A stretch of 64,000 bases of DNA from a virus: positions 26,682 to 90,681 of the IMG/VR virus record IMGVR_UViG_3300021964_000028, one strand, 5' to 3'. Every line of letters begins with the position of its first letter. Within the stretch, counting starts at the first letter, position 1. Under the pieces are notes generated by a model. The model made no database searches. It was not told the DNA's origin and saw nothing but the letters and a program-made list of their open reading frames with translations. The position numbers and the translations under genes were made by a program. Positions 48,014 to 63,607 of the stretch are shown here, in pieces.

Positions 48014-48014
48014 A

Positions 48015-49805: not shown

Positions 49806-49981
49806 AAGAAAGTTTGAATGAAGCGGAGAGTAATCTTCGCAATGCTCTAGCATTTGCTGCTAGACAAGAAAGACCTCTTGTTTGTAATAACATCTCCAAA
49901 CTTATTTTGGATATTGAACATATCAAGTCTTTTGATGAACTACTAGATACTATTGATCAATCTATTCAGATTGACAAATAA
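49784..49981 (+). CDS. Conserved cyanophage hypothetical protein, 65 aa
   Basis: MALSKSVEESLNEAESNLRN then ALAFAARQERPLVCNNISKL. Helical. I have the impression of a conserved small cyanophage protein, unknown role. Lies in a tightly overlapping string of genes. Confidence 0.7.
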   Translation: MALSKSVEESLNEAESNLRNALAFAARQERPLVCNNISKLILDIEHIKSFDELLDTIDQSIQIDK

Positions 49982-50021
49982 ACTACAAACAAGTAAACTT
50001 ACGGAGTAACCTAAAGAAGAA

Positions 50022-50255
50022 ATGAAGTACCTCTACGTTGTCGATCATTTTGTTCCATTCCCATCCTCTGAATATGGTGGTATTTGGAATGTAGTCGCTT
50101 CAAATAATGAAGAATGTTTTGATTTGATTACAGATTTTGATGCAGATGATAATGTTGGGCATTATTCTGATCTACGACAAAACATTATGAAAGCAAGGGT
50201 ATTTCCTCTTGCACAAGATATTGAATCATCAGTAATCGCTGAGTTTACAACATGA
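50022..50255 (+). CDS. Hypothetical protein, 77 aa
   Basis: MKYLYVVDHFVPFPSSEYGG then IWNVVASNNEECFDLITDFD. Looks alpha/beta, acidic in the middle. GGAGTAACC lies upstream. The next ATG overlaps its stop. Confidence 0.7.
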   Translation: MKYLYVVDHFVPFPSSEYGGIWNVVASNNEECFDLITDFDADDNVGHYSDLRQNIMKARVFPLAQDIESSVIAEFTT

Positions 50256-50431
50256 AGTTTTCATTAAAATCTGAAGTCTGTTACAAAGATTTGTATGGAT
50301 TTGTAGATTTTATTGACAGTGAGTGTATAGTTATTCAACTACCAACACCACCAGGTAGAAATCCTCCAAGAGTTGTTGTTTATCACTGTGACTTTGATAA
50401 AGTCAAAGTTTTGAAAGATAGTGATAAATAA
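50252..50431 (+). CDS. Hypothetical protein, 59 aa
   Basis: MKFSLKSEVCYKDLYGFVDF then IDSECIVIQLPTPPGRNPPR, probably a small beta-barrel. ATGA overlap with the gene before. The stop lies within a late-type box for the next gene. Confidence 0.65.
   Translation: MKFSLKSEVCYKDLYGFVDFIDSECIVIQLPTPPGRNPPRVVVYHCDFDKVKVLKDSDK
50423..50430 (+). promoter_or_regulatory. Late-promoter-like box
   Basis: GATAAATA within the last codons of the preceding gene, 22 bases before ATG 50453. Confidence 0.5.
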
Positions 50432-50452
50432 TAAAAAAATACTATTACTAAA

Positions 50453-50629
50453 ATGGCAAGATTAATGGCAAAACTAGGACTAGGTGTTTCCGTTGCGGAT
50501 TTCAACAACGATGAACACGTTGAAGATAGGACACCAACAGTCACTGCTGTTGCAGATGATATCTCTGTGTCAGAACCTGAAGGTAAACTTAATCTAGGTA
50601 TTTCTGTAGATACTGATCTTGATGAATGA
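50453..50629 (+). CDS. Hypothetical acidic protein, 58 aa
   Basis: MARLMAKLGLGVSVADFNND then EHVEDRTPTVTAVADDISVS. It has two similar ends (LGLGVSVADFN and LNLGISVDTDLD), suggesting a short internal repeat. The stop overlaps the next ATG. Unknown function; perhaps virion-related, given the late-type box. Confidence 0.6.
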   Translation: MARLMAKLGLGVSVADFNNDEHVEDRTPTVTAVADDISVSEPEGKLNLGISVDTDLDE

Positions 50630-50838
50630 TTAAAAAACGAGTTCAACCAGAAACTCCAACAAAACCTTTCCATGAAACCTTTCCTTTTGGTCTAAGTTGG
50701 ACCACAAAAGAAGGAAAGAAAGAACTTGAACACTTTGCTTATTTCCCATACGATGACTACAGATCAAGATACATGCAGCGATTCAAAAGTGAAGGAGGTA
50801 GAAAGTTCAAGCGATTCAAAACCAAACCAAGAGTATGA
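50626..50838 (+). CDS. Hypothetical protein, 70 aa, basic C-terminus
   Basis: MIKKRVQPETPTKPFHETFP then FGLSWTTKEGKKELEHFAYF. Ends with a basic tail (RKFKRFKTKPRV), suggestive of nucleic-acid contact. Overlaps both neighbours. Confidence 0.65.
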   Translation: MIKKRVQPETPTKPFHETFPFGLSWTTKEGKKELEHFAYFPYDDYRSRYMQRFKSEGGRKFKRFKTKPRV

Positions 50839-51043
50839 GTGGATTGATGATGCTTTCCGCGTAGAAGAAACACGTTTTATGTGGAAAAGTGTCCGTAAAG
50901 ATAATGGTAAAGACTTTTTATTTGGTGTTACTAAAGAAGCGGTGATTCATATGTCACGCTGGCATCTTAAATGTGAACAAGAAGGAACTCTTGAACAACA
51001 TACAAGAGTAGTTGGAGATGGTTTTGTTGGTGGAAAACTATAA
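50753..51043 (+). CDS. Hypothetical protein, 96 aa
   Basis: Starts inside the previous gene in another frame; ATG 50753 (MTTDQDTCSDSKVKEVESSS) is preferred, with ATG 50726 as alternative. A Ser/Asp/Glu-rich N-terminus is followed by a folded part (EYEWIDDAFRVEETRFMWKS). Unknown function. A late promoter overlaps its stop. Confidence 0.62.
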   Translation: MTTDQDTCSDSKVKEVESSSDSKPNQEYEWIDDAFRVEETRFMWKSVRKDNGKDFLFGVTKEAVIHMSRWHLKCEQEGTLEQHTRVVGDGFVGGKL

Positions 51044-51046
51044 ATA
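51039..51046 (+). promoter_or_regulatory. Late promoter
   Basis: Exact TATAAATA overlapping the preceding stop, 25 bases before ATG 51071. Confidence 0.78.
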
Positions 51047-51070
51047 ACACTAAACTGTGTTTATATAAAA

Positions 51071-51505
51071 ATGAAGTCTTACAAAGAGTTTGTTTCTGAA
51101 GCATTCAAAAGAACTGGCAAGAAAATATCCTTTGTAAGACTTCATCATGGGTCTGATGAAGACTCAGTAAAATCAATCAAAAAGAGTGGTCCTAGACCTT
51201 CACCTAAAGGTAGTGAGGGTCCAGGACATTATGTCACTCCAGATAAAAAGAAAGCATCAAAATATGCTGAGTTTACTTCTAAATCAAGAAAGAAGAAACC
51301 AGCAGTAGTATCATATAGAGTTTCAAAGAAAAGGATTACTAATACAGATAGTATTCCAAAAGGACTTACATCTCAAAAGAAAACTACAAGTGAGAAACCA
51401 GTTGTAAGAAATACACGAACTGGTCATGTTGCCATGGACGCTGACTATGCGAATAAGAAAATGATTCGTAAGACAGAACCTATTATTCGTAGAAAAAGGA
51501 GGTAA
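51071..51505 (+). CDS. Candidate head-packaged protein, ADP-ribosyltransferase-like, 144 aa
   Basis: The N-terminus MKSYKEFVSEA closely resembles the capsid-targeting sequence of T4 internal proteins (MKTYQEFIAEA), which gp21 protease cuts after Glu; here the site would be V-S-E. The body FVRLHHGSDEDSVKSIKKSG then GPGHYVTPDKKKASKYAEFT has the HG(S/T)...G-x-Y-x-T...A-x-x-Y layout of ADP-ribosyltransferase-like folds, with the C-terminal Glu unassigned. The chain is very basic. An exact late promoter drives it. A protein packaged and injected with DNA is inferred. Confidence 0.6.
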   Translation: MKSYKEFVSEAFKRTGKKISFVRLHHGSDEDSVKSIKKSGPRPSPKGSEGPGHYVTPDKKKASKYAEFTSKSRKKKPAVVSYRVSKKRITNTDSIPKGLTSQKKTTSEKPVVRNTRTGHVAMDADYANKKMIRKTEPIIRRKRR

Positions 51506-51510
51506 GTATT

Positions 51511-53508
51511 ATGGCAGATCCAAAAACTGATATAAATGAATCTTTATGTTGTATTGCTTTAAGATATATTGATAAGTATCCAACAAATAGTGTGGATGAT
51601 TTTGTTGACATGATAACTACTGAGGGTAAAAAACCAGAGGAGTGGAGTGATAATGGTGTTCTGGAAAATTTGGAAATAGGAAGAGGAAAATATAGAACAC
51701 ATTCAACATATAGATCTGCTTATGGTCAGAAAGATTCAAATAAAAATTTAAAATATGAAACTTGGATTAAAGGGTCATTTTATAGTGCTCAAGCAATAAG
51801 GAAAAAGTTAAATGTTGTTTTAAGTCAATACATCATATCAAGACCAGACGAAGAAGAAAATAATAAATCTTATATAATTAAAGAGAAATGTGCTTCTGCA
51901 ATCAAAAATTGGTCAAATGTTTTTAGCAGGACTGATGTAGCAAAAGCACAAAAATGGTCTCCGGGAATTTTATCTAAGTTAAACTCTGATAAAATTAATA
52001 TTGCAGATATTATGTTAATACATAAAAATCCTGAAGTTTATGATGAACTTGATGAAATTCAAGAAATAACAAATAAAGTAAAATGGAAGGATGTCTGTAA
52101 TAATCCATCAATCATTAAAAATTTACTAACACCCAAAAAATATAATGAATACATGAATAGAGCATGGTTGATAAAAGATATATTCAACATTTCTTTAAAA
52201 AAAGTATTGTCTGAAAATTTTCCTGTAAAACTGATAAACTTAGACAGAAACTCTGCCAAAGAATATGATAGTGATATTGACGAATTTCAATTTTTGCTAA
52301 CATCATTAGTTGGTGCTGCTAAATCTGGTTCTCTTTCTAATTTTGAAAACCTAATTAAAGAAACTATTGATTTAGAACCTGTTATTTTTTCTGCAAATGA
52401 TAGATTGGAAGTTAAATATAAACTTAATATCAAAAATCTTAACTTGAATAAAGTAAAGTCATATGATTATACAATGTGGACTAATTTTGGTGGAGGTCAA
52501 AAATCTGTTTACTTTTCTCAAGCAGGCAGTAAATCTGCTTCTGGAGAAGGAGGAATAACACTTATTTACTTTTCAAATTTGGTTAAAGATATTCCAAAGT
52601 TAAGAACGTTCCTAACATATATGAAACTAAAAAGAAAAGAATATTTTAATGCAGCATGTCAAAAATATGGTTTAAATTTTAGTGATTCTAAAATGGGAGA
52701 TTCTTCACTATCAAATGCCAAATATAATTCTATTCTTTATACATCAAATGATTTCAAAAAGTTAGTTCATGTTCTATTGACTGATGAACCAGTAACACAA
52801 AAAGATGTAATCACGCCTATAAAATATATCACCAAAAGTACTGGAGAGGTGATTATAAATGATGGTCAAAAATTAACCAAAATTGATTATAAGTCAATGT
52901 TAGTCTTGGAAGATTTTTTTAAATCATATGTTAATTTTTTATCAAACAATAGTAGTCAAATGGGAACATATTTTGGTTTGAGTGAAAAAACGAAAAAAAG
53001 TTTAATAACTCAAGGAAGAAAAATGTATCAAAAATTTGAACAAGTTTATAATAAAGAAGTTTTATCAAAGAAAAAGAAAAAATTAGATCAAAAAAAATAT
53101 GAAACTTTGAAAAAAGACATTGGTAAAATTAAAGGCATTAGTGGAACAGAGACAACAAAACTAAAAAATGAAAGAATACTTAACGCAGTTTCTTTGACAG
53201 AGAGTGAAATTAAGTCAATAAAACAATTTTCTGTCTCAGAAGCAAGAAAATGGAAAAGCAAAGAATATAAAAGTTTTAAAGAATCATATAAAAAAGGATT
53301 TGCACTTCTTGCAAATGCGGAGTTTGGTTATATGTATTCTGAATACGCAGATAAAATTAACGAATTGGTGAAAAAACAAGTATTACTATCATTATATGCC
53401 GCAGCAAGTGGTAGAGGTTATATTATATTTGAAGGAAAAAAATTTGAAATGGATGATTATTTTGAAAAAGATGTAAAAGGTGCTCCTTATCTAAAAGTTG
53501 GTATGTGA
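51511..53508 (+). CDS. Unknown large protein, 665 aa
   Basis: I recognise no domain. It starts five bases after the previous stop (GGAGG site), so it shares the late transcript of the putative injected protein. It is Lys/Asn/Ser-rich and visibly more AT-rich than neighbours. A near-central region YTMWTNFGGGQKSVYFSQAG then SKSASGEGGITLIYFSNLV is Gly-rich. The last third is basic and helical (SKKKKKLDQKKYETLKKDIG). No signal peptide or membrane helix. It could be a virion-carried effector or internal head protein, but this is a guess from context. Confidence 0.7.
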   Translation: MADPKTDINESLCCIALRYIDKYPTNSVDDFVDMITTEGKKPEEWSDNGVLENLEIGRGKYRTHSTYRSAYGQKDSNKNLKYETWIKGSFYSAQAIRKKLNVVLSQYIISRPDEEENNKSYIIKEKCASAIKNWSNVFSRTDVAKAQKWSPGILSKLNSDKINIADIMLIHKNPEVYDELDEIQEITNKVKWKDVCNNPSIIKNLLTPKKYNEYMNRAWLIKDIFNISLKKVLSENFPVKLINLDRNSAKEYDSDIDEFQFLLTSLVGAAKSGSLSNFENLIKETIDLEPVIFSANDRLEVKYKLNIKNLNLNKVKSYDYTMWTNFGGGQKSVYFSQAGSKSASGEGGITLIYFSNLVKDIPKLRTFLTYMKLKRKEYFNAACQKYGLNFSDSKMGDSSLSNAKYNSILYTSNDFKKLVHVLLTDEPVTQKDVITPIKYITKSTGEVIINDGQKLTKIDYKSMLVLEDFFKSYVNFLSNNSSQMGTYFGLSEKTKKSLITQGRKMYQKFEQVYNKEVLSKKKKKLDQKKYETLKKDIGKIKGISGTETTKLKNERILNAVSLTESEIKSIKQFSVSEARKWKSKEYKSFKESYKKGFALLANAEFGYMYSEYADKINELVKKQVLLSLYAAASGRGYIIFEGKKFEMDDYFEKDVKGAPYLKVGM

Positions 53509-53584
53509 CACTACACAAAGTGTCCATTGTATATTGATTTTCCTAGAGAATATATTATACTGTCTTCATACTTAGAAAAAATCC

Positions 53585-53749
53585 ATGTCCAAAGATTTTA
53601 AAATCAATCTTGATGAACGAGAAATCAACACTATCTTGTATGCTTTAAGTTGTCTTTCCGATACTACACAAGAATGGACTGCATACAACGATAAGTATGA
53701 ATATTCCGTATATTTGAAAGAAAAACTTGAAGAGATTATTGTAGAATAG
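53585..53749 (+). CDS. Hypothetical protein, 54 aa
   Basis: MSKDFKINLDEREINTILYA then LSCLSDTTQEWTAYNDKYEY. Helical. TATACT at about 53552 may be a -10. A terminator follows, so it appears to be a single-gene unit. Confidence 0.65.
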   Translation: MSKDFKINLDEREINTILYALSCLSDTTQEWTAYNDKYEYSVYLKEKLEEIIVE

Positions 53750-53755
53750 ACAATC

Positions 53756-53780
53756 AAAAAACTGACGCCAGTTTTTTGAT
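53756..53780 (+). terminator. Rho-independent terminator
   Basis: AAAAAACTG, ACGC loop, CAGTTTTTT. Symmetric A and T tracts mean it may also work on the other strand. Confidence 0.82.
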
Positions 53781-53844
53781 ATGATTCCATTGTTGACGAA
53801 TGTCAAGGAGTTCAAATCAAATAACAACAAATCAAAATAGGACC

Positions 53845-53873
53845 TTGCCTAGCGGTCCTTTGGGTGCTATAAT
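53845..53873 (+). promoter_or_regulatory. Sigma70-like promoter of the helicase gene
   Basis: TTGCCT (53845-53850), a 17-base spacer, then TATAAT (53868-53873). An AGGACC/GGTCCT hairpin overlaps the -35 region. It would start RNA near 53880, downstream of the ATG at 53800 of the long frame. Confidence 0.7.
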
Positions 53874-53898
53874 TCATTCATACGCAACAGAGACTACC

Positions 53899-55128
53899 TT
53901 GACCATCTCCCTTCGTCCTCACCAGCAACGTGCTTGCGATGCTATGCTGGCATTTGACAAGGGTCAAATCATTGTTCCTACTGGTGGAGGCAAGACTCTT
54001 GCCATTATTACTGATGTCAAAAATATCTTTGATTCCAACGATGGTGCTAAAACTATTGTTGTAGTTGTTGCTCCACGTATTCTACTTGCAGAGCAACTTT
54101 GTTCTGAGTTCCTTGAGCATATTGATAATGTTGCTGTGATGCACGTTCACAGCGGTGATACTAAGCATTTTAGTAGCACCAAACCAAATGCTATTCACAA
54201 TTGGTCATATCGAGCATACAGTAAGCAACTAATCTTTACCACATATCATTCCCTGCATCGTATTAAAGAAGCAGGTCTAAATGTTCACACCATTCACTTT
54301 GATGAAAGTCACAACTCAGTCCAGAAAAGTTTCTTTCCTGCCACAGAGTATTTCTCTGCTAATGCTAACCGCTGCTATTTCCACACTGCTACTCCCGTTC
54401 ATTCTGCGGTTGCTAACAAACCTGGAATGAACGATGGTGAAGTTTATGGGGATGTAATCTACAAGGTTCCTGCACCTGAACTTGTTAATGGTGGTTTTAT
54501 TGTTCCTCCACTCGTCAGTGTGAAGCAACTTGACATTGCTTCCTCTAACGTGTTTGAGAGAGATTGTAAGCACCTTCTAGAGACCATTGAGAGTGAATCT
54601 ATTCACAAGGGTCTTATTTGTGCAAAGTCTACAAAAATAATCGTTGGTCTTGTTTCTAACACTAGTTTTGTGGAGGAAATGAAAGAGCGTGATTATTCTG
54701 TACTTTACATCACATCTAAGACTGGTGCTGTCATTGATGGCAAGAAAGTGAAGCGTGATGTATTCTTCAAGACTCTAAATGCTTGGGGTAAGGACAACGA
54801 CAAAAAGTTTGTTGTCCTTCACCATAGCATCATTTCTGAAGGTATCAATGTCAGTGGACTAGAAGCAGTTATTTTCATGCGTTCTATGAACTACATTGGT
54901 ATTCTTCAAAGTGTGGGACGCACATTGCGTCTACATCTTGAAGATGCTCAAGGTATGCGAGATGGTACTATTCCTGCTGGACAGTACCATCTTTATCGCA
55001 AACCTTTTGGTAAAGTTGTGATTCCTGCCCATGATAAGGTTGGCATCACAACTGCCAAAAAGATCCAAAACGCACTTGACATTGTATTCCAGCAAGGTGA
55101 AGTGTGCGAAACCATTATCAAACGATGA
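53899..55128 (+). CDS. SF2 DNA/RNA helicase, TTG start
   Basis: 409 residues from TTG 53899 (MTISLRPHQQRACDAMLAFD); the open frame reaches back to 53800 but crosses the promoter. Walker A PTGGGKT is at 27-33, the DEAD-type box is DESH at 135-138, and motif VI is QSVGRTLR. RPHQQRA is the Q-like motif near the start. It belongs to the UvsW/type III restriction-helicase-like group, which acts in recombination or fork processing. It lies upstream of the restriction-like cluster, but separate promoters suggest independent roles. Confidence 0.87.
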   Translation: MTISLRPHQQRACDAMLAFDKGQIIVPTGGGKTLAIITDVKNIFDSNDGAKTIVVVVAPRILLAEQLCSEFLEHIDNVAVMHVHSGDTKHFSSTKPNAIHNWSYRAYSKQLIFTTYHSLHRIKEAGLNVHTIHFDESHNSVQKSFFPATEYFSANANRCYFHTATPVHSAVANKPGMNDGEVYGDVIYKVPAPELVNGGFIVPPLVSVKQLDIASSNVFERDCKHLLETIESESIHKGLICAKSTKIIVGLVSNTSFVEEMKERDYSVLYITSKTGAVIDGKKVKRDVFFKTLNAWGKDNDKKFVVLHHSIISEGINVSGLEAVIFMRSMNYIGILQSVGRTLRLHLEDAQGMRDGTIPAGQYHLYRKPFGKVVIPAHDKVGITTAKKIQNALDIVFQQGEVCETIIKR

Positions 55129-55159
55129 TCATGTTTAAGTATTCACCAATCATTAACAT

Positions 55160-55357
55160 ATGTCAAAGGGATTTACTATAGGAAAATGGGAATATGATAC
55201 ATTATATGCTGCTGTTCCTTTAGCGGGAAGCACATCTAAACTTGTAATAATACATCAAGGTCAACAAATAAAGGTGTGTAGAAATGAACAATCTGCACGA
55301 AACTTTATTGAAAAGCATAGAAAATCAAAATCAAAGGGTGTTCTGCCAGTTGATTAA
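55160..55357 (+). CDS. Hypothetical protein, 65 aa
   Basis: MSKGFTIGKWEYDTLYAAVP then LAGSTSKLVIIHQGQQIKVC. A small beta-rich domain followed by a basic helix (NFIEKHRKSKSKG). No recognised family. Confidence 0.65.
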   Translation: MSKGFTIGKWEYDTLYAAVPLAGSTSKLVIIHQGQQIKVCRNEQSARNFIEKHRKSKSKGVLPVD

Positions 55358-55428
55358 CTGTTCACTCATCACCCTGCTGTCGCGGTAGTGTGATATTATT
55401 AAAAGGTCAAAGCACACAACACAAACAC

Positions 55429-55797
55429 ATGGCAAAAGTCGTCTACAACAACTGTATTGGTGGTTTTGCACTATCAAACGATGCACTTTATCGCATGGTG
55501 CAACTTGGTTCTCCTTACATCAAACCAAATCCTGAGTTTGAAGCAACCAATGAGTATGGTGATGGAACTACCACCAAATGGTGGGAGGCAAAGTATATTT
55601 ACGACTGGGATCTTCCTCGTCACGATGAGATTCTAGTGCAAGTAGTTGCTGAACTGGGTGATCGTGCCAACGGTCCAGGCGCATCACTTAAACTTGCTGA
55701 TGTAGTCTCCCAGTATATTATTATGGACACTCGGGGTATGGAGCAAGTTATCCAACCTCAAGAGATCCAATGGCAAACCGCAACCAATCGTCTTTGA
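55429..55797 (+). CDS. Widespread phage protein of unknown function, 122 aa
   Basis: MAKVVYNNCIGGFALSNDAL, then PRHDEILVQVVAELGDRANG and GASLKLADV. I recognise this as a family seen in many phages (NxCxGGFxLS ... R.D..L...VEELG..A). ATG 55429 is chosen over the earlier in-frame codon at 55390, which falls in a promoter-like stretch (TATTAT at 55394). It overlaps the restriction enzyme gene by 28 bases, so coupling is likely. Confidence 0.78.
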   Translation: MAKVVYNNCIGGFALSNDALYRMVQLGSPYIKPNPEFEATNEYGDGTTTKWWEAKYIYDWDLPRHDEILVQVVAELGDRANGPGASLKLADVVSQYIIMDTRGMEQVIQPQEIQWQTATNRL

Positions 55798-56339
55798 TTA
55801 TGACCTACACATTTAACGGTGGTATTCAAACAGGCACAGTTGCAACTGATGCCCGTGCTCGCAAACTTGACGAGCAATGTAAGCATGTGAAGAAAACTAT
55901 TCTTCCTATTATTTCTGCGATCTATCCTGAAGTAACTATGCAGATCAGACTTACTAAAGCACAGATTCCTGGCAGTAAAGGTGCTTGCGAACCCGATGGT
56001 GGTTTGTGGTTCTACAAAGGCAAACTGATTTCAGTGTTTGAAGGTAAGAAACAGCAGGATCGAGGTAATGCTATCGAACGCTGGTTCAAAAACAACTATA
56101 TTTGCCGAAAGATCAATTCTGAGGTGAGTTATGTCACTTTCTGTACTGGTGAAGGTGCATATGATGATGGTACGATTGGCAAAACCCTGCATGTTGCTCA
56201 TCTTGCAGGAGTGAATCAGTATAATCCTGGAGATAACTCTGTATTTTACAATACAGACTGCTTTACACGAGAGTTTATTTCTGATACAATGCTAGAAGTG
56301 CTCTCAGAGCGTATTCAATCGGTAGATCTATCTCAATGA
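55770..56339 (+). CDS. EcoRI-like type II restriction endonuclease
   Basis: 189 residues. P75-D76-G-G, then E91-G-K93 (KLISVFEGKKQQ), then R98-GNAIERWFKN, corresponds in order to EcoRI PDGG...EAK...GNAIERSHKN (catalytic Asp91, Glu111, Lys113). A strand and Gly-rich stretch, VSYVTFCTGEGAYDDGT, match EcoRI YVLFLEGSN. It is shorter than EcoRI (277 residues). It would cut double-stranded DNA at a specific site. The methyltransferase start overlaps its stop (ATGA). ATG 55800 is an alternative start. Confidence 0.83.
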   Translation: MANRNQSSLIMTYTFNGGIQTGTVATDARARKLDEQCKHVKKTILPIISAIYPEVTMQIRLTKAQIPGSKGACEPDGGLWFYKGKLISVFEGKKQQDRGNAIERWFKNNYICRKINSEVSYVTFCTGEGAYDDGTIGKTLHVAHLAGVNQYNPGDNSVFYNTDCFTREFISDTMLEVLSERIQSVDLSQ

Positions 56340-57175
56340 AACCTTTATTCATCTGGGCAGGTGGTAAAACAAAGGTGCTAAAACATTATGCACCTTTTAT
56401 GCCATCTGCCCCTTTTTCTACATATTATGAACCATTCTTTGGTGGTGGTGCAATGTTTGTCCATGTGATGAACACATATAAACCAAAGAATGTTGTCATC
56501 AATGACATCAACGATGATGTGATGAACATCTATCGTTCGATTCGTAATGAATATGATGAGTTTATTGATAGAGTCGATAGTTTAGAATCTCAATATCTGC
56601 CATTGAGCAAAGAAGATCGCAAGAAGTTTTATTTTGATATTAGACATCTTCATGCATGGAACTATCAAGAATGGAGCAAACCATTTGAAGCAGCAACACT
56701 ATATTTTTTGATGAAGACTGGATTCAATGGTATCTATCAACTGAACAAGAATACTAATGGAAGGTATGGAACACCTGCTGGATTGCTGAACCAGAAGGAT
56801 AAGATCTATGATCGCTCTGTGATGCTATGGTGGAAACAAGCACTGCAAAGTGTAGATATTCGCTCTGGTGATTGGAAAGATGCCGTAACTGATGATCCTG
56901 ATGGTTTCTTCTTCTTTGATCCACCATATCGTGATAGTTTTGCAGATTATGGCAATGGATTTGATGAGCAGGCACTGCTAGACCTTATCGACTTTGCCGA
57001 TGCACAAAATACAGTTTTTGTTGCTAACCGTGCAGATGATAACTGGTTTGATGATAAATCAAAGTCATTAAATGTTCATTACTTTAACATCACATACACT
57101 GCTGGTCGTAGGAAGAAAACAGCAACAGGATATGCTGCAAAGCAAGCGCGTGAAATCCTACTTTACAAACCTTGA
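56336..57175 (+). CDS. DNA adenine methyltransferase, Dam/D12 class
   Basis: 279 residues. FIWAGGKTK (5-13) and YYEPFFGGGAM (30-40) form the SAM-binding FxGxG region. DPPYRDSF (195-202) is the N6-adenine catalytic motif. KTGFNGIYQLNKNTNGRYGT is the typical Dam-type helix before target recognition. The target is not readable; D12 enzymes often modify GATC. It is coupled to the EcoRI-like gene, so it may protect phage DNA from that enzyme. Many cyanophages have such a gene alone. Confidence 0.93.
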   Translation: MKPLFIWAGGKTKVLKHYAPFMPSAPFSTYYEPFFGGGAMFVHVMNTYKPKNVVINDINDDVMNIYRSIRNEYDEFIDRVDSLESQYLPLSKEDRKKFYFDIRHLHAWNYQEWSKPFEAATLYFLMKTGFNGIYQLNKNTNGRYGTPAGLLNQKDKIYDRSVMLWWKQALQSVDIRSGDWKDAVTDDPDGFFFFDPPYRDSFADYGNGFDEQALLDLIDFADAQNTVFVANRADDNWFDDKSKSLNVHYFNITYTAGRRKKTATGYAAKQAREILLYKP

Positions 57176-57200
57176 CAGACTCATCCGTCCATACTAATCT
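57172..57200 (+). promoter_or_regulatory. Sigma70-like promoter
   Basis: TTGACA (57172-57177), a 17-base spacer, then TAATCT (57195-57200). It starts within the methyltransferase stop region and is 24 bases upstream of ATG 57224. It shares TTGACAGACTCATC with 46923. Confidence 0.75.
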
Positions 57201-57223
57201 ACCTATGTTGTCCACACTACATT

Positions 57224-57745
57224 ATGTTTGACATCAAACAAATCAATCTTGAAGAGTTTTTCGGTTGTGTAGATGCAACTAACACAACGCAGATGAAGTC
57301 TAATACCTTCAAGACCTTTCGTACATGGTTGCAAGAGAAATCATTTGCCAAATGGAGTAATAATCAACTGAAATATGTTGGTGACTATACTGATGGCACA
57401 GATTTTACATCAGATGATGGTACTCGATATGAAATGAAAGGTGCTCTCGGTATGTTCAACAAGAATGGATCTACCAAGAGCATTGTTCTTAAGAACTTTC
57501 AATCTGATAATAAAGTAATCGAAAAGACTTTTGATTACATGCTACTGGTTGATACTAAGAACATGTCTATTGCATCAGTTGATTGGGAAACTGTAGAGAA
57601 GCGTATCTACTACACTCCCAAATCACCAACAGCAAAAGTAAAGTTTATTCCTGGTGATTTTACTATTCTAGCAACAGATATTAAACCCGCAAGTAAATCT
57701 ATCAGTGCAGGTGAGATTCTAGATAAGGTTGAGGTGATTCTGTAA
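57224..57745 (+). CDS. PD-(D/E)XK nuclease-like protein, restriction enzyme candidate
   Basis: 173 residues. TDGTDFTSDDGTRYEMKGAL places acids at about 57-65 ahead of E70-M-K72, the PD...ExK pattern. TKSIVLKNFQ and FDYMLLVDTKNMSIASVDWE follow as the beta-strands typical of type II restriction enzymes. I cannot name its family. Next to a methyltransferase and an EcoRI-like gene, it may be a second endonuclease. It has its own promoter. The next gene overlaps the stop by one base. Confidence 0.62.
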   Translation: MFDIKQINLEEFFGCVDATNTTQMKSNTFKTFRTWLQEKSFAKWSNNQLKYVGDYTDGTDFTSDDGTRYEMKGALGMFNKNGSTKSIVLKNFQSDNKVIEKTFDYMLLVDTKNMSIASVDWETVEKRIYYTPKSPTAKVKFIPGDFTILATDIKPASKSISAGEILDKVEVIL

Positions 57746-58050
57746 TGGCAACTTGGGAAGGTGAAGCATGGTTAGGATCTGCATCTGGAAGACAAAAAGT
57801 TAGAGTTCAGTCTAACACTTTCCATGGTGCAAAAGAGCAAATCGAGCAAATCTATGGATCTACAGATGTTTGGAATCTGAGAGAAGTTCGATCATCCTCA
57901 AGTTCTAGTTCTTCTGAAGGTGTTTTTTCACTGTTAGTTGTATTATTTGTCATTGGTTTGATTGTTCAATTTTGGCATATTGCTATGTGGATAATCTTAG
58001 GTCTGCTTATTCTTGGGGTTGTTGGTTATATCTTTGGAGATGATGAATAA
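57745..58050 (+). CDS. Small membrane protein, 101 aa
   Basis: A soluble N-terminus (MATWEGEAWLGSASGRQKVR then IEQIYGSTDVWNLREV) is joined by an eight-Ser linker to two hydrophobic helices (GVFSLLVVLFVIGLIVQFWH, then MWIILGLLILGVVGYIFG). It follows the nuclease-like gene at a TAATG overlap, so the two share a transcript. Possible role in superinfection exclusion is pure inference. Confidence 0.75.
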   Translation: MATWEGEAWLGSASGRQKVRVQSNTFHGAKEQIEQIYGSTDVWNLREVRSSSSSSSSEGVFSLLVVLFVIGLIVQFWHIAMWIILGLLILGVVGYIFGDDE

Positions 58051-58070
58051 TACTCTGTGACAGTCCTAGA

Positions 58071-58113
58071 AGCGTCCACAAGGCGCTTCCAACCCACCTT
58101 CCTGCCTTATACT
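58071..58113 (+). promoter_or_regulatory. Hairpin plus -10 module before an early gene
   Basis: GAAGCG and CGCTTC pair around TCCACAAGG near 58071-58090, followed by TATACT (58108-58113), then ATAAGAGTCAAC. The hairpin, -10 and AGTCAA layout recurs across the early region. Confidence 0.55.
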
Positions 58114-58140
58114 ATAAGAGTCAACAACACACCTCTGAGC

Positions 58141-58314
58141 ATGTCTGACGCTTACCTGGATGAAGTTCAAGTCGAAGAACTGATGGTCGAGGAAATGATA
58201 TATGATGATTACGCTCCCACAGAGGAAGATTGGGAGTCTAATCCTTTCTTCGACGATGATGCCGATCTCGAAGCATTCTCTCTTGAATGTGCATTTGGTC
58301 CTGAAGAGTATTGA
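58141..58314 (+). CDS. Very acidic hypothetical protein, 57 aa
   Basis: MSDAYLDEVQVEELMVEEMI then YDDYAPTEEDWESNPFFDDD. About a third of residues are Asp or Glu, which could mimic DNA (as Ocr-type anti-restriction proteins do), though this is inference. ATG 58141 is chosen because the upstream part is promoter. Confidence 0.68.
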   Translation: MSDAYLDEVQVEELMVEEMIYDDYAPTEEDWESNPFFDDDADLEAFSLECAFGPEEY

Positions 58315-58316
58315 TT

Positions 58317-58484
58317 ATGCTTTCAGCATTAAACAAACCACGCTCACCATCATTTTATCACGGACTAATGTTTAAGATCGCAATCACTGTCGGTCTTTTA
58401 TATTTTTTTTGGGAACCACTGCGTCCCGTTCGCCATGTGACAGCAGACGCACTGTCCTTCACTGCCGAACAGATCCGCCGATAG
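58317..58484 (+). CDS. Small membrane protein, 55 aa
   Basis: MLSALNKPRSPSFYHGLMFK then IAITVGLLYFFWEPLRPVRH. One transmembrane helix with a basic N-terminal side and a polar tail. Two bases separate it from the previous stop. Unknown function. Confidence 0.65.
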   Translation: MLSALNKPRSPSFYHGLMFKIAITVGLLYFFWEPLRPVRHVTADALSFTAEQIRR

Positions 58485-58523
58485 GGTCTAAACTTACTTC
58501 AGTTCACACAACCACACCGAACA

Positions 58524-58700
58524 ATGACCAAGCAACAGTCCCTCCAGTCTGCTCGCAACGTGATCACTGACAAGCAGGATGCTAACCGCGAAGAACTGAA
58601 ACGTGCTGCACTTGCAGCAGGTCGTGGTGCTCAAGCAGTCAGCAAAGCAAGCACTCTGCGCCTTGCTTTCTGGATTTCTTTTGGTGCTTCTGCTATCTGA
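58524..58700 (+). CDS. Hypothetical protein, 58 aa
   Basis: MTKQQSLQSARNVITDKQDA, then an Ala-rich helix and a short hydrophobic end (LRLAFWISFGASAI). Possibly a tail-anchored membrane peptide. Codon use looks more GC-rich and host-like than in the structural genes. A hairpin follows the stop. Confidence 0.62.
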   Translation: MTKQQSLQSARNVITDKQDANREELKRAALAAGRGAQAVSKASTLRLAFWISFGASAI

Positions 58701-58701
58701 G

Positions 58702-58722
58702 TAGGGCATTTGCCCTCTAGTT
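58702..58722 (+). terminator. Short terminator-like hairpin
   Basis: AGGGCA, TTT, TGCCCT stem directly after the stop, with a weak T stretch (CTAGTTTC). Confidence 0.55.
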
Positions 58723-58746
58723 TCATTCACTTTATTCTTGCAAATC

Positions 58747-59160
58747 ATGGGAACTCGCTCACGAATCGGTATCGAACTCTCTGACCAATCCATTCTTTCT
58801 GTCTATCATCACTGGAATGGTTATCCTGAATGGTTGGGTCGTATTCTAGAGACACACTACAACACCAGAGAACTGGTGGAAGAGTTGATTGATGGTGGTG
58901 ATATGTCTATCTGTTGGACTGATAAAGTGTGGGGACAACCTCGCACTGATGGACAGAAGTATGGTCCTGAGACTTATGCTGCCCGTGGTGAACATTGCCC
59001 TCCTCGTTTGGATAAAGATATGGAAGAGTTCTTCTCTATGGGTGAAGAATACTCTTACATCTTCCGTGATGGTAACTGGTTTGCCTATGATATGCACCAG
59101 TTTGATGACACTTTAGCACCAGAACCTGTTGAAATCCCTAGTGGAGCGTTGATGGTATGA
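58747..59160 (+). CDS. Conserved phage/bacterial protein, 137 aa
   Basis: MGTRSRIGIELSDQSILSVY then HHWNGYPEWLGRILETHYNT, and GDMS later, with EYSYIFRDGNWFAYDM near the end. I recognise this as a common family in phages and bacteria whose function is unknown. ATG 58747 is the natural start. The next gene overlaps (ATGA). Confidence 0.82.
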   Translation: MGTRSRIGIELSDQSILSVYHHWNGYPEWLGRILETHYNTRELVEELIDGGDMSICWTDKVWGQPRTDGQKYGPETYAARGEHCPPRLDKDMEEFFSMGEEYSYIFRDGNWFAYDMHQFDDTLAPEPVEIPSGALMV

Positions 59161-59435
59161 TTATCACCAAAGATCAACTGCAAGTAAAGCGTAGTGAGTG
59201 GGAGTGCTATATTGACACTCCCGATTCTGTCATTGAAAGTATCAACAATGAATTTCTTGAGATTCTGAACACGACAAACAGTCCAGTGCTTGCTCAGAAG
59301 CGGATTTATCGGTTTTTATATAATAATCATCGAAAGTGGGGATTTAGTGATTCTGAATGTAACGAAACTGCCACAAATGTGATCAATCAATACTATAATA
59401 GTAATATAAATCGTTGGGCATCTTTAATCCTATGA
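59157..59435 (+). CDS. Hypothetical protein, 92 aa
   Basis: MIITKDQLQVKRSEWECYID then TPDSVIESINNEFLEILNTT. Helical, two Cys. Linked by ATGA overlaps to both neighbours. No recognised domain. Confidence 0.7.
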   Translation: MIITKDQLQVKRSEWECYIDTPDSVIESINNEFLEILNTTNSPVLAQKRIYRFLYNNHRKWGFSDSECNETATNVINQYYNSNINRWASLIL

Positions 59436-59644
59436 TTGACCGTACATTTTTAGACAACATGACCCACGATCAGAAAGAATGTCTAGCAGAAGACTGTGAA
59501 GACTATCTTGTTCATCGTCACATTCCTCTGCATTCTCACTCTTACGATAACATTATCATGCAGGCGATTAAGGAAGGTTATCAACTATCAAAAAATAATA
59601 GGACACTTCCCAAACCGCCCACTATTCATCCATATTTCCCCTGA
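59432..59644 (+). CDS. Hypothetical protein, 70 aa, His-rich
   Basis: MIDRTFLDNMTHDQKECLAE then DCEDYLVHRHIPLHSHSYDN. Clustered His and Cys residues could bind metal. ATG 59432 overlaps the previous stop. Ends before a -10-like module at 59654. Confidence 0.68.
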   Translation: MIDRTFLDNMTHDQKECLAEDCEDYLVHRHIPLHSHSYDNIIMQAIKEGYQLSKNNRTLPKPPTIHPYFP

Positions 59645-59682
59645 TTTCTGCAATACTATAGGAGTCGTCGGGATTTCACCCC

Positions 59683-59961
59683 ATGCTCACTGTTAATCTC
59701 ACTGAAGATCAACTCTCGCTCCTGGAAGAACTTGTGGGTGAGAAGTTTAATGAAGTCGCACAAGCATGGTTGCCTGCTGAAGAAACAAAGGACATGAACA
59801 AACTTTGTTATGATACTATTTTGAACCTCCGTTGTGTTCGTATGTCCAAAGAGTATGATGAAAACAAGTGTCTTAAGGGTGGACTTTTTTCTAAGAAAGA
59901 GTATCTGGTGGATGTGGGTCTTGTGACGGATGAAGAACTTGCACAGCAGGGCATCTGCTGA
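59683..59961 (+). CDS. Hypothetical protein, 92 aa
   Basis: MLTVNLTEDQLSLLEELVGE, then KEYLVDVGLVTDEELAQQGI. Acidic and helical. Preceded by TACTAT (59654) and GGAGTC. A CAGCAG/CTGCTG hairpin overlaps its stop. Confidence 0.7.
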   Translation: MLTVNLTEDQLSLLEELVGEKFNEVAQAWLPAEETKDMNKLCYDTILNLRCVRMSKEYDENKCLKGGLFSKKEYLVDVGLVTDEELAQQGIC

Positions 59962-60009
59962 TCGCATTTCTACCCTATACTGATTACATCAACACAGGAG
60001 ACATCTCCA

Positions 60010-60453
60010 ATGATCACCGAAACCTTCTCCGAATACGTTGCTCAGCAAGATGCTCGTAACACTATTCAACTGAATGTCACCAAGCATTGTCTGATGCTGT
60101 GTGATGCTCTGCGCCAGAACTACATTGATTACAGCATCAAATCTCATCAACGTAATGTAGAGCGTGGTGATAGCGTTGATTATCACAATGCCTGCATTAC
60201 CGACCTGAAGAATGGTGAGTGTGATTACGAGTTCACTGTTGAGAGTGGACGTAAGTATCACAAAATCATGATGAGTGCCAATGGTTCTCGATCTGTTCAT
60301 GCCTTCGTTGATAAGAAGACTGGTGAAGTGTATAAACCTGCCAGCATTAAGTCTCCTGCCAAAGGTATTCGTTTCGATCTGCGATTGATTAAAGATCGTG
60401 AGTGGTTGCTGGAGAATGCTGACTGGGCAGGTTCTTATCTCTACATTCGATGA
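60010..60453 (+). CDS. Conserved cyanophage hypothetical protein, 147 aa
   Basis: MITETFSEYVAQQDARNTIQ, then a beta-rich core ECDYEFTVESGRKYHKIMMS with SRSVHAFVDKKTGEVYKPAS, which looks like a compact single-domain fold. TATACT at 59976-59981 and an AGGAG site precede it. The next small ORF overlaps its stop. Function unknown. Confidence 0.75.
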   Translation: MITETFSEYVAQQDARNTIQLNVTKHCLMLCDALRQNYIDYSIKSHQRNVERGDSVDYHNACITDLKNGECDYEFTVESGRKYHKIMMSANGSRSVHAFVDKKTGEVYKPASIKSPAKGIRFDLRLIKDREWLLENADWAGSYLYIR

Positions 60454-60542
60454 TATACTTTCTCATCATAAGTGCTGGCGTTGCGTGGGCAATGCTAGCA
60501 CTATTCTCTCCATGGTTTAATCATCTTGATAAGAAAAAATGA
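60450..60542 (+). CDS. Membrane peptide, 30 aa
   Basis: MIYFLIISAGVAWAMLALFS then PWFNHLDKKK. One transmembrane helix with a basic cytoplasmic tail, positioned between two ATGA overlaps, which supports real translation. Confidence 0.58.
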   Translation: MIYFLIISAGVAWAMLALFSPWFNHLDKKK

Positions 60543-60697
60543 CTGAAATGGATCTGAAAATCAGTGACCTCGCAGAAGAGTTTGAGGTCACTTGTGATTA
60601 TATCATTGATGAGTTTATCATTGATGATAAGTTGCAACCTTGCACAATGTTTTTCGTCATTATTGACGACAATCCAATAATCATTAATTTTAACTAA
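60539..60697 (+). CDS. Acidic hypothetical protein, 52 aa
   Basis: MTEMDLKISDLAEEFEVTCD then YIIDEFIIDDKLQPCTMFFV. Many Asp/Glu and Ile residues. Coupled to the membrane peptide upstream. Unknown. Confidence 0.6.
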   Translation: MTEMDLKISDLAEEFEVTCDYIIDEFIIDDKLQPCTMFFVIIDDNPIIINFN

Positions 60698-60729
60698 TAC
60701 TAACCAACCCTTCACTATCTAACAACATC

Positions 60730-60984
60730 ATGGCAAATCAGTTCTACACACTCAAAGCACTGCAATCACAGGTGCAAAGTCTCATCGAAGAGCAAGGTGA
60801 AGATGCACCTTGTGCGGGTTGGATTTACACTAGCGAAGATGTTGTAAAGTATGATGATAATGGAGATGAAGTACAACAACCCAAAGAAGTTTGTGAGAAT
60901 GTGTTAATCAACTTGCAAGACTACGATTTCATCTATCAGGCAATTGTGGATGCTATTGATACAGAACTCGGTGAGGTTAAGTAA
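60730..60984 (+). CDS. Conserved cyanophage hypothetical protein, 84 aa
   Basis: MANQFYTLKALQSQVQSLIE, with DAPCAGWIYTSEDVVKYDDN and an acidic helical end. Mostly likely a small alpha/beta domain. Unknown function. Confidence 0.7.
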   Translation: MANQFYTLKALQSQVQSLIEEQGEDAPCAGWIYTSEDVVKYDDNGDEVQQPKEVCENVLINLQDYDFIYQAIVDAIDTELGEVK

Positions 60985-61109
60985 CACTAACTGTGGTGTC
61001 ACTAAATGATACTCAGGTCAGATGCCTCCCAATCGGTAAAGTGTCACAAGGTTTCGGCACGAACCTCAAAATCGTGTATTATTAAAGAGTCAAAGAAACG
61101 AGTTCGATT

Positions 61110-61292
61110 TTGGTTTACACAGTTCACTGCCCTGAGTTTAATGAAACTGAGAATTGTGCTTCTCAGGAACATGCTATCGATGTGGCATATTCAATGTACG
61201 AAGAATTTAATTCTATTGTCTGGGTTGAAGATTACCTAGGTCATACAGTGATAGAATTAGGTGATCATATGGGAACTTACTCACCTAAGTAA
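61110..61292 (+). CDS. Hypothetical protein, 60 aa, TTG start
   Basis: MVYTVHCPEFNETENCASQE then HAIDVAYSMYEEFNSIVWVE. It starts at TTG 61110 after the leader AGAGTCAAAGAAACG; no ATG fits. The overlapping frame at 61006 lacks protein-like composition. Unknown function. Confidence 0.62.
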   Translation: MVYTVHCPEFNETENCASQEHAIDVAYSMYEEFNSIVWVEDYLGHTVIELGDHMGTYSPK

Positions 61293-61315
61293 CATTATTT
61301 CAAAGTGTTACAGGT

Positions 61316-61339
61316 CGGGCAATCTTCCACGGTTGCCCG
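61316..61339 (+). terminator. Hairpin after the 60-residue gene
   Basis: CGGGCAA (61316-61322) and TTGCCCG (61333-61339) form a perfect seven-pair stem. There is no T tract; a -10-like TAGAAT follows, as elsewhere in this region. Confidence 0.5.
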
Positions 61340-61385
61340 TTCCTATCCTGTAGAATAACAAAGTCAAACCAGCACACCTGAACCG

Positions 61386-61679
61386 ATGACTGACTCTACG
61401 ATGATCCTTGAACCATTGGCGAGTGACCTTTACCCCATTCCGGATGCTGCCGGAACCGTATCCTGGCAGCAAGCATTAATGTTTGCATTCTATTACGGTA
61501 ATCAGTGTTCGGAAATTGTCGTTTCTTTCACTAAAGAATACGATGTTAATAGGTTCGAAAGAATCGATTTGGGAGAATTAAATGTCTGGATTAATAACAT
61601 CGAGGAAGAAATGATTGAACAGTTAATGTTACCCCAAAGACGGGGTATTATGCCTGCCCTGAGCGGGTGGATTTATTAA
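61386..61679 (+). CDS. Hypothetical protein, 97 aa
   Basis: MTDSTMILEPLASDLYPIPD then EEEMIEQLMLPQRRGIMPAL. Acidic, with a Trp near the C-terminus. Preceded by an AAGTCAAACC leader like neighbouring early genes. Unknown. Confidence 0.68.
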   Translation: MTDSTMILEPLASDLYPIPDAAGTVSWQQALMFAFYYGNQCSEIVVSFTKEYDVNRFERIDLGELNVWINNIEEEMIEQLMLPQRRGIMPALSGWIY

Positions 61680-61758
61680 GTTACACATAGATTGATTGGG
61701 CATTGATTTTATCATGTAAGTCCCACACATTGACCATTAAACCATTGCATTTTTGATT

Positions 61759-61923
61759 ATGTTTTCTCGTGAAGTAATGCTGGGCATGATTCGTCAGTGC
61801 AAGACTGGTGATCAAATGTTGGAAACGATTGATTCTATTCTGAATGCTGAATCGAGTCAAGAAGATGACAACTATGATCCTCTAGAAGATTTCAACTACG
61901 TTGGTGCTCGTTGCCATTATTGA
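61759..61923 (+). CDS. Hypothetical protein, 54 aa
   Basis: MFSREVMLGMIRQCKTGDQM then LETIDSILNAESSQEDDNYD. A short helical pair with an acidic end. The next ORF follows after 4 bases. Confidence 0.62.
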   Translation: MFSREVMLGMIRQCKTGDQMLETIDSILNAESSQEDDNYDPLEDFNYVGARCHY

Positions 61924-61927
61924 TCCG

Positions 61928-62047
61928 ATGAGAATCGCACTTTTAGTATTGTTTACAGTGATAGGTGCTAATCTCATCAATCACACTGTAGAAACGGCGA
62001 CTCGATTACAGATTCAACAGGTACAGCGATTGCATCACCAAATATGA
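61928..62047 (+). CDS. Membrane or secreted peptide, 39 aa
   Basis: MRIALLVLFTVIGANLINHT has a signal-anchor-like N-terminus; the remainder is polar. Small size lowers certainty. Confidence 0.5.
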   Translation: MRIALLVLFTVIGANLINHTVETATRLQIQQVQRLHHQI

Positions 62048-62087
62048 TGCAAACTAGTTTCAAAAGTACAATCAAGTGAACAATCCA

Positions 62088-62303
62088 ATGTCTGAAACTG
62101 TGATGAACATCAACGAGCAGATTAGCACTGCATTTGCTAATCTTTCTGAACTAAGTGGGATGCACTATGATTATTGGATCTCACGATTGTATGATGTAGA
62201 TGGAGACATGGTTGAAGATGAGTGGTCCAATGTAACACTAACTGAAATGCAGTTAGATGTTGATGAACTGAGTAAAGATCTCATGGAAACAGTTACAAAC
62301 TAA
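62088..62303 (+). CDS. Acidic hypothetical protein, 71 aa
   Basis: MSETVMNINEQISTAFANLS then VDGDMVEDEWSNVTLTEMQL. Predominantly helical and acidic. ATG 62088 is preferred over GTG 62076. A strong terminator follows its stop. Confidence 0.68.
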   Translation: MSETVMNINEQISTAFANLSELSGMHYDYWISRLYDVDGDMVEDEWSNVTLTEMQLDVDELSKDLMETVTN

Positions 62304-62310
62304 GGTATAG

Positions 62311-62338
62311 GTGGACGGTTGAGAAATCGTCCACTTTT
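62311..62338 (+). terminator. Rho-independent terminator
   Basis: GTGGACG and CGTCCAC form a perfect stem around GTTGAGAAAT, followed by TTTT. Confidence 0.87.
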
Positions 62339-62393
62339 GCTTGATCTGGGCAGCGATCTATGGGATTCTATAGGAGTCAAAGGGAACACCCCA

Positions 62394-62597
62394 ATGCACA
62401 TCTTCACCAACGCCTCAAAGATCGGAACCCTGATTCCTCGCACTGGTTTATCCTATTGCGAGGATGATAACACTTACACAGAATATACTTTTGAGGTTAA
62501 TGCTTGGGCATGTTCTCTCGATGATCGTCCTTTTTGGACATACCCCAAGAAAGAATCTCAGGTTGATTTGTTCACTGAAATGTTTGGAGAATCATGA
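62394..62597 (+). CDS. Hypothetical protein, 67 aa
   Basis: MHIFTNASKIGTLIPRTGLS then YCEDDNTYTEYTFEVNAWAC. Looks beta-rich. ATG 62394 follows a TTCTATAGGAGTCAAAGG early leader. The next gene overlaps by four bases. Confidence 0.68.
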   Translation: MHIFTNASKIGTLIPRTGLSYCEDDNTYTEYTFEVNAWACSLDDRPFWTYPKKESQVDLFTEMFGES

Positions 62598-62779
62598 CAG
62601 CATTTGTAACACCTAAGAGCAAGAAAGCACGCAACCGATTCTGTAACTTAATGAGACAAGAATCGGAGTGTGTGATTGAACAAAACAAAGGTGATCGTGT
62701 GTTTTTACGTTCACTCAATGGCAAGAACTTTTTCTGGGTTAATCTACATCATGATAAGGATTGGAACCTGGAAATGTAA
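62594..62779 (+). CDS. Hypothetical protein, 61 aa, paralogue of 46990-47184
   Basis: MTAFVTPKSKKARNRFCNLM then VFLRSLNGKNFFWVNLHHDK. Same order of basic N-terminus, SLNG turn and closing KDW/HW element as the 64-residue protein at 46990. The two probably arose by duplication. Confidence 0.7.
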   Translation: MTAFVTPKSKKARNRFCNLMRQESECVIEQNKGDRVFLRSLNGKNFFWVNLHHDKDWNLEM

Positions 62780-62865
62780 CGATGTGCCAGTTGGACAACC
62801 TACACACAAAATAGGCACAGCACCCCGATCTCCTGTAATTTAGAAGAGTCAAAGGAACGCAACTC

Positions 62866-63096
62866 ATGGCAACTCCAATCTTTAACCTCTCTCCTGAAAT
62901 GCAAGCAACCTGGGATGACATCATGGGGCAAATGTGCGTCTTCGTCGATGATACAAATGCCGATGTCGATATGGCATACGATTGGGTATGTGAAATGCTG
63001 GAAATCGATTCCTTCATTGATAACAAGGAAGCATGGGATTCTTTCTACGATGTCTGGACATCATGTGACAATCGCAATGAACTGAACATTCTCTGA
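62866..63096 (+). CDS. Acidic hypothetical protein, 76 aa
   Basis: MATPIFNLSPEMQATWDDIM then FVDDTNADVDMAYDWVCEML. Rich in Asp and Trp. Preceded by AGAAGAGTCAAAGGAACG, the recurrent early leader. Unknown. Confidence 0.68.
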   Translation: MATPIFNLSPEMQATWDDIMGQMCVFVDDTNADVDMAYDWVCEMLEIDSFIDNKEAWDSFYDVWTSCDNRNELNIL

Positions 63097-63132
63097 ATCA
63101 TCAAACGTTCAACCTAATCTAACATCAAAACC

Positions 63133-63330
63133 ATGAATCGCTACTGCATCGAACTTGATCGAATCGAACCCAATGGTGATGTTCATACCATTGTTGAGTA
63201 TCGTCAACTGAAAGCAACAAAATCTAATCGTGGTCGTGATCGTCAAATGAACAATCTAGTTAATCAAATCATTGAGGAACTAAAGTATTATCAAGTTCCC
63301 CATAAGCGTTTCACTGTGCGCCACGTTTGA
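63133..63330 (+). CDS. Basic hypothetical protein, 65 aa
   Basis: MNRYCIELDRIEPNGDVHTI then VEYRQLKATKSNRGRDRQMN. Its basic loop (KSNRGRDRQ) suggests nucleic-acid contact. Four bases separate it from the next gene. Confidence 0.68.
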   Translation: MNRYCIELDRIEPNGDVHTIVEYRQLKATKSNRGRDRQMNNLVNQIIEELKYYQVPHKRFTVRHV

Positions 63331-63334
63331 CCTC

Positions 63335-63592
63335 ATGACTTTTCCTTACATTAACATCGACAATAGCACTCTTGGCAATCACACTTCTACCTTTTTCAAG
63401 GTAAGTGCTGATGCTCAAGAATCATGGATTAACGGTATCTTCCATAACTCAAGGTATGGAATCTTCTGTCTTGCTGATGGTAAACTAGAGTTAATCTCCA
63501 AAGGATTAAATACTGCTAAGTTTCGCAAGTGTAAATGTAGTGACCAAGAGACTGCATTCAATAAGATTAAACAATGGATGGAAAAGTTTTGA
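63335..63592 (+). CDS. Conserved cyanophage hypothetical protein, 85 aa
   Basis: MTFPYINIDNSTLGNHTSTF then RKCKCSDQETAFNKIKQWME. Beta-rich with a C-terminal helix. It is the last gene before the non-coding right end. Confidence 0.72.
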   Translation: MTFPYINIDNSTLGNHTSTFFKVSADAQESWINGIFHNSRYGIFCLADGKLELISKGLNTAKFRKCKCSDQETAFNKIKQWMEKF

Positions 63593-63607
63593 TCTAAAAT
63601 AACACTT

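Follow-up and report, generated by a model that had tools for sequence, protein, structure and literature searches.

EcoRI, a protein of 277 amino acids (aa) that recognizes GAATTC, belongs to a nuclease family (PF02963) in which the motifs PDGG, ExKxQ, and GNAIERxxKN follow one another in that order and the partner is an adenine methyltransferase (MTase), which for EcoRI is of the EcoRI_methylase type. The region of EcoRI between its catalytic lysine and GNAIER forms an arm around the DNA. Three residues of GNAIER, N141, A142, and R145, act on the inner base pairs of the recognition site, either touching them or wedging into them (PMC4081073). The bacterial systems MunI (CAATTG) and MluCI (AATT) have the AATT core that is also the predicted target of the nuclease described here, and a possible relation among EcoRI, MunI, and MluCI through mosaicism has been mentioned (PMC4081073).

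In phage T4, the role that we propose below for this locus is filled by different enzymes and a different self mark, namely denA, denB, and ndd together with protection by modified cytosine. The pairs carried by Chlorella viruses, such as CviAII of PBCV-1, destroy host DNA and protect the virus's own. The existence of these Chlorella virus restriction-modification pairs was noted in a review that called Type II nucleases on phages rare (PMC4081073). The Mom-nuclease fusions of jumbo phages have been interpreted along lines similar to those proposed below (PMC7824862). The genes denA, denB, and ndd are missing from T4-like cyanophages, for which a so far undescribed route of host DNA degradation has been suggested (PMC2984593).

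Here we describe a locus within a 64,000-nucleotide stretch of DNA (the window), part of a 90,681-bp IMG/VR virus record, that encodes a predicted EcoRI-family nuclease (N1), a Dam-fold MTase (MT), and a second predicted nuclease (N2) (Table 1). The annotated phages closest for N1 and MT are the Synechococcus phages S-RIM2 and S-BM1 (Kyanoviridae), and the window is therefore most likely a fragment of a T4-like cyanophage. The likeness to the Chlorella virus pairs is one of proposed function, a lytic virus with both a nuclease and a methylase, and those viruses infect eukaryotic algae, unlike the cyanophages considered here. We propose that N1 and MT very likely make up a Type II-like system of the phage, which would cut AATT where it is unmethylated, in the DNA of the host and/or of rivals, and spare its own. 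The AATT target is what is new here; the system was not found described in the open literature searched, which does not prove it undescribed.

TABLE 1 Coordinates of the features discussed (window positions unless a contig is named)
Feature	Position	Strand	Basis or observation
N1, EcoRI-family nuclease (predicted)	55770..56339	+	ORF, phrog_2400, motifs, profile comparison
N1 catalytic codons (predicted)	D76 55995-55997; E91 56040-56042; K93 56046-56048	+	motif alignment
N1 GNAIER, AATT-reading segment (predicted)	56064-56081	+	identical to EcoRI segment
MT, Dam-fold (D12 class) adenine-N6 DNA methyltransferase	56336..57175	+	PF02086, TIGR00571; AATT protection predicted
N2, second PD-(D/E)XK nuclease (predicted)	57224..57745	+	D60, E70-x-K72 invariant; PvuII/DpnI/NhoI-like fold predicted
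665-aa ORF, AT-rich stretch	51511..53508	+	AATT normal: 28 vs 29.7 expected
AATT depletion, genome-wide	1..64000	.	116 observed vs 493 expected
N1-MT intervening ORFs	L026:6644-7699, L005:4216-5127, L008:1334-2389
N1-MT intervening ORFs	L009:1522-2562, L011:3930-4874, L017:6812-7831

N1 is a compact relative of EcoRI and a predicted nuclease

Comparison with homologues placed the likely start of N1 at an inner ATG (position 55800) rather than at the beginning of the open reading frame (ORF) at 55770, giving a protein of 179 aa. It matched phrog_2400 (4.8e-89), and a scan of viral contigs with the family alignment yielded 85 relatives with identities down to 33%. All of the features that the initial annotation had named for this cluster were found where it had placed them, including the series PDGG...EGK...GNAIER in N1. 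These motifs go beyond chance, since they are invariant or nearly so across 47 family representatives and are shared with the invariant residues of the EcoRI family; the residues invariant in N1 were G22, P75, D76, E91, K93, Q95, G99, N100, A101, E103, R104, W105, K107, N108, T123, and G129, and D76, E91, and K93 align with D91, E111, and K113 of EcoRI. PDGG, ExKxQ, and GNAIERxxKN occurred in a common order in N1, EcoRI, and five plasmid homologues (from Leuconostoc, Staphylococcus, Rhodococcus, Acinetobacter, and Paracoccus), one of which is just 27% identical to EcoRI. The profile comparison that had been suggested as a check gave the same answer: hhalign scored the N1 family at 97.4% (E 1e-11) against this EcoRI family and at 95.4% against EcoRI alone. 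The Pfam EcoRI family was matched weakly by 7 of the 47 N1 members (best E, 0.0013) and not by the window N1 protein itself; MT was the only one of the three window proteins to match Pfam. N1 and N2 were both unmatched in PADLOC, and in NCBIfam N1 was unmatched and N2 had only a weak, chance-level match.

The AlphaFold model of N1 (pLDDT 77.9, built on a shallow alignment of 17 sequences) showed the alpha-beta-beta-beta-alpha-beta element order of PD-(D/E)XK nucleases, in which D76 immediately precedes a strand, the next strand contains E91 and K93, and GNAIER opens the following helix. A Foldseek search of this model against the PDB gave no significant match, so the fold is claimed from sequence and element order. 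The catalytic lysine and GNAIER are separated by 6 residues in N1 versus 27 in EcoRI, from which it follows that N1 is without the region corresponding to the EcoRI arm. N1 is thus a compact EcoRI relative and predicted nuclease, which differs from EcoRI in its length of approximately 180 aa, in being phage borne, and in having a Dam-like partner. No N1 homologues were found in bacteria or plasmids by a plasmid search and two scans of genome contigs. Within the EcoRI family itself, a divergent gene on a Paracoccus marcusii plasmid (L269:272-2142) overlaps an annotated DNA adenine methylase, a partner annotation that differs from M.EcoRI.

A Dam-fold methyltransferase accompanies N1

The ATGA overlap reported between the first two genes was confirmed, with the N1 stop codon at 56337 to 56339 and the MT start at 56336. 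MT, which had been recognized as a DPPY adenine methylase, contains FDPPY, matches the Pfam family MethyltransfD12 (PF02086; E 1e-31), and scores above the TIGR00571 cut-off; DpnM is its nearest PDB entry. Its description as Dam-like therefore holds for the fold but probably not for the specificity that the name might imply. In EcoDam, K9 and R124 contact the outer G-C pairs of GATC. The window MT has I and Q at these positions, and among the aligned N1-type MTases the R124 position is Q in every case, whereas K9 is replaced by I, M, V, or T in all but one, which has K. Because these contact residues are replaced, MT is probably not GATC specific despite its Dam fold, and GATC was disfavored as its target; the glutamine at the R124 position would be compatible with an outer A-T pair.

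A complete phage-borne pair had been considered unusual. N1 was found in 65 Synechococcus phages of GenBank and in no fewer than 85 contigs of IMG/VR, so that in this virus group the pair is common. The linkage of nuclease and MTase genes that characterizes Type II systems was seen both as the overlap in the window and as adjacency elsewhere: among 66 distinct N1 genes, MT directly adjoined N1 in 34, was separated from it by an insert of 0.7 to 1.4 kb in another 14, and lay upstream in one. In one contig (L023) the two were fused into a single 472-aa ORF, and in another of 190 kb (G001) they were unlinked, with a 59% identical MT homologue located elsewhere.

In some phages, N1 and MT are separated by ORFs (Table 1) that differ from one another and encode 300 to 370 aa. 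Several have DGQH- or GNH-type motifs; by eye they look ParB/DndB-like, and one matched DUF6551 weakly.

AATT is depleted in genomes that carry N1

Word counts were compared to order-2 Markov expectations. AATT had the lowest z of the 16 palindromic tetramers in the window, and its observed/expected ratio (o/e) was 0.25 in the window phage, 0.25 in S-RIM2, and 0.27 in S-BM1. Across all genomes with N1 the ratio ranged from 0.00 to 0.83 (0.21 in G001, 0.73 in G005, 0.66 in G006, 0.44 in G007, 0.75 in G008, 0.66 in G009, 0.63 in G010, 0.83 in G011, 0.57 in G012, 0.16 in G033, 0.13 in G034, 0.57 in G035, 0.09 in G036, 0.27 in G037, and 0.35 in G038), while in cyanophages without N1 it was mostly 0.89 to 1.03 (S-PM2, 0.99; S-SCSM1, 0.99; S-RSM4, 1.03; P-SSM2, 0.91; S-SM2, 0.95; Syn9, 0.89; and G016 to G019, G022, and G023, 0.91 to 1.01). 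Mildly low values were measured in some phages without N1, G013 to G015 (0.70 to 0.88, with 0.71 in G014 and 0.70 in G015). The depletion followed N1 even where the N1 proteins shared as little as 33% identity. An unbiased scan of 136 tetramers in 11 genomes with and 12 without N1 gave a log2 difference of -1.73 for AATT (P = 4.7e-5, a nominal value that overstates independence because the genomes are phylogenetically related) and of -0.20 for the next word. In loci of 4 to 12 kb, the median AATT o/e was 0.41 around N1 versus 0.88 where N1 was absent, with some of the latter loci reaching down to 0.43. For TTAA, which has the same composition as AATT, the o/e was 0.74 to 1.05 in genomes with N1.

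The initial annotation had considered GAATTC as the target and had listed three such sites; these, at 6051, 44486, and 46240, are exactly those present in the window. However, every NAATTN context was depleted in G000 (GAATTC, 0.14; CAATTG, 0.20; TAATTA, 0.19; AAATTT, 0.25). Since the depletion occurs with every flanking base, the avoided word is AATT and not GAATTC, and on this genomic evidence we rejected GAATTC as the N1 target. The genomes point instead to AATT, which would set N1 apart from EcoRI. One AT-rich stretch of the window, occupied by a 665-aa ORF, had a normal AATT content (Table 1), whereas the rest of the window had 88 copies versus 465 expected (0.19). This difference indicates that the ORF is probably a recent arrival from which AATT has not been purged, and it serves as an internal control.

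Two related phages with N1 contain no AATT

No AATT was present in G002 (111,864 bp), in which 340 copies were expected, or in the 60 kb read of G004, which is 86% identical to G002 and in which 201 were expected. A further contig, G003, is the same phage as G002 (100% identity), so the AATT-free genomes represent two related phages and not three. N1 was intact in each of these contigs, and MTases of the families PF02086, PF01555, PF02384, and PF13651 were not detected in them, although the contigs may be incomplete. AATT and CCGG were the only tetramers of the 256 to be absent from G002; the lack of CCGG is a separate matter, since this word is also missing from several cyanophages without N1. 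We consider it likely that some phages carry an AATT nuclease without a methylase and are protected solely by the erasure of every AATT. If this is true, self would be recognized by a missing four-letter word, with no chemical mark, and the methylase-bearing carriers would be part-way along the same route.

Proposed role of the N1-MT pair

Under the mechanism that we propose, N1 would cut unmethylated AATT and MT would methylate the AATT sites of the phage, most likely at the inner adenine. During lytic infection, the pair would distinguish the DNA of its own phage, in which most AATT has been lost and the rest is methylated, from that of the host and/or competing phages, which N1 would fragment, with host DNA passing to nucleotide salvage. 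We infer these two activities, and the host or superinfecting phages as their victims, from protein sequences and genome composition. Many phages with N1 retain AATT at 20 to 80% of the expected level, which requires either protection by MT or a recent gain. Residual sites in MT carriers would be tolerated through methylation, and carriers without an MTase would have had to lose every AATT site. The initial interpretation is borne out as regards a pair of EcoRI-like nuclease and adenine methylase with a second PD-(D/E)XK nuclease, but not in its GAATTC target or the rarity of the arrangement.

The pair might mainly exclude superinfecting or coinfecting phages rather than degrade host DNA, a role that is compatible with the proposed system and that we regard as quite possible, if somewhat short of probable. 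Cyanophages that lack N1 and have the same listed host are not short of AATT, with several hundred sites in every 50 kb as expected, and would be cuttable, and the distribution of N1 is patchy. An AATT cutter would, however, hit the host chromosome as well, and the data separate neither role from the other. Whether its victims are hosts, rivals, or both, the proposed N1-MT system is a concrete candidate for host DNA degradation by cyanophages, with a predicted cut site, and it is immediately testable in S-RIM2 and S-BM1, for which the laboratory host Synechococcus WH7803 is listed. A virus that purges the target word of its own nuclease throughout its genome would have a compositional signature tied to one gene, and the AATT signature may help to foretell which phages are able to coexist in one host.

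N2, a second predicted nuclease

N2 contains the DGTRYEMK motif in a PD-(D/E)XK layout, as first described, and had no significant family match. Structure prediction, which had been suggested as a check, gave a confident model (pLDDT 88.9, 41 sequences) whose best PDB matches were PD-(D/E)XK restriction enzymes, namely the N-terminal domain of Eco15I, NhoI, DpnI, and PvuII (E 2e-4 to 5e-3); the predicted fold is shared with these proteins at identities under 18%. Relatives of N2 were found in at least 161 viral contigs. A different Dam-like MTase, MT2, starts at or overlaps the N2 stop codon in 60 of the 73 loci with enough sequence, whereas in the lineage of the window N2 follows the N1-type MT instead, and a second D12 MTase was not found in the 90.7-kb record. 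The second nuclease of the reported cluster is therefore present, but its own Dam-like MT2 elsewhere makes it less than obvious that N2 belongs with N1 and MT.

It is conceivable, but rather doubtful, that N2 is a methylation-dependent nuclease of the DpnI/NhoI kind that attacks modified DNA and is not a conventional restriction partner. Its closest folds, the Eco15I N-terminal domain, NhoI, and DpnI, were solved with methylated targets or cut methylated DNA, but the conventional enzyme PvuII is also among the matches, and the adenine MTase that directly adjoins N2 in those 60 of 73 loci fits better with protection. Word depletion revealed no clear word as an N2 target. G013 to G015 (L305, L306, and L319 to L322), relatives of the window phage that carry N2 without an adjacent MTase, avoid several palindromes (ATAT, approximately 0.5; GATC, approximately 0.5; TTAA, 0.46 to 0.76), unlike other cyanophages; no link between N2 and these low ATAT, TTAA, and GATC counts could be established. 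The apparent clamp-loader genes gp44 and gp62 flank the N2-MT2 region in L078. At this place S-PM2 has just a short Dam ORF (L314:34556-34954), and S-BM1 (L337:41344-42177) and S-SCSM1 have a Dam gene.

Host restriction and other readings judged improbable

AATT could instead have been lost to an AATT-specific restriction enzyme of the cyanobacterial host, with N1 incidental and MT a simple antirestriction device. Phages commonly avoid host restriction sites, which is the subject of one report (PMC6286503), and MT alone would be enough for protection. Among phages for which WH7803 is the listed host, there was nevertheless a split by N1 status, with an AATT o/e of 0.23 to 0.28 in S-RIM2 and S-BM1, which have N1, versus 0.99 in S-PM2 and S-SCSM1, which do not. 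This split disfavors host restriction as the cause, as do the tracking of N1 by the depletion across divergent N1 proteins and the presence in N1 of the segment with which EcoRI reads AATT, and we consider the explanation very improbable. Also very improbable is the reading that N1 and N2 process DNA or act as homing-type nucleases, in recombination, packaging, or mobility, with no role in self/non-self discrimination: PD-(D/E)XK nucleases do have such roles in phages and no MTase adjoins the N2-like genes of the S-SCSM1 type, but N1 has the base-reading residues of EcoRI and tracks the depletion of exactly AATT, and the genes for N1 and N2 each form overlapping pairs with an adenine MTase gene.

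A second word was also missing from some of these genomes. CCGG had 0 copies in many cyanophage stretches of 40 to 112 kb regardless of N1, including those of S-PM2 (L314), S-RIM2 (L313), G001, G002, G016, and G018, and was near expectation in G022 and G012. Its absence possibly reflects another host- or phage-encoded nuclease that targets CCGG.
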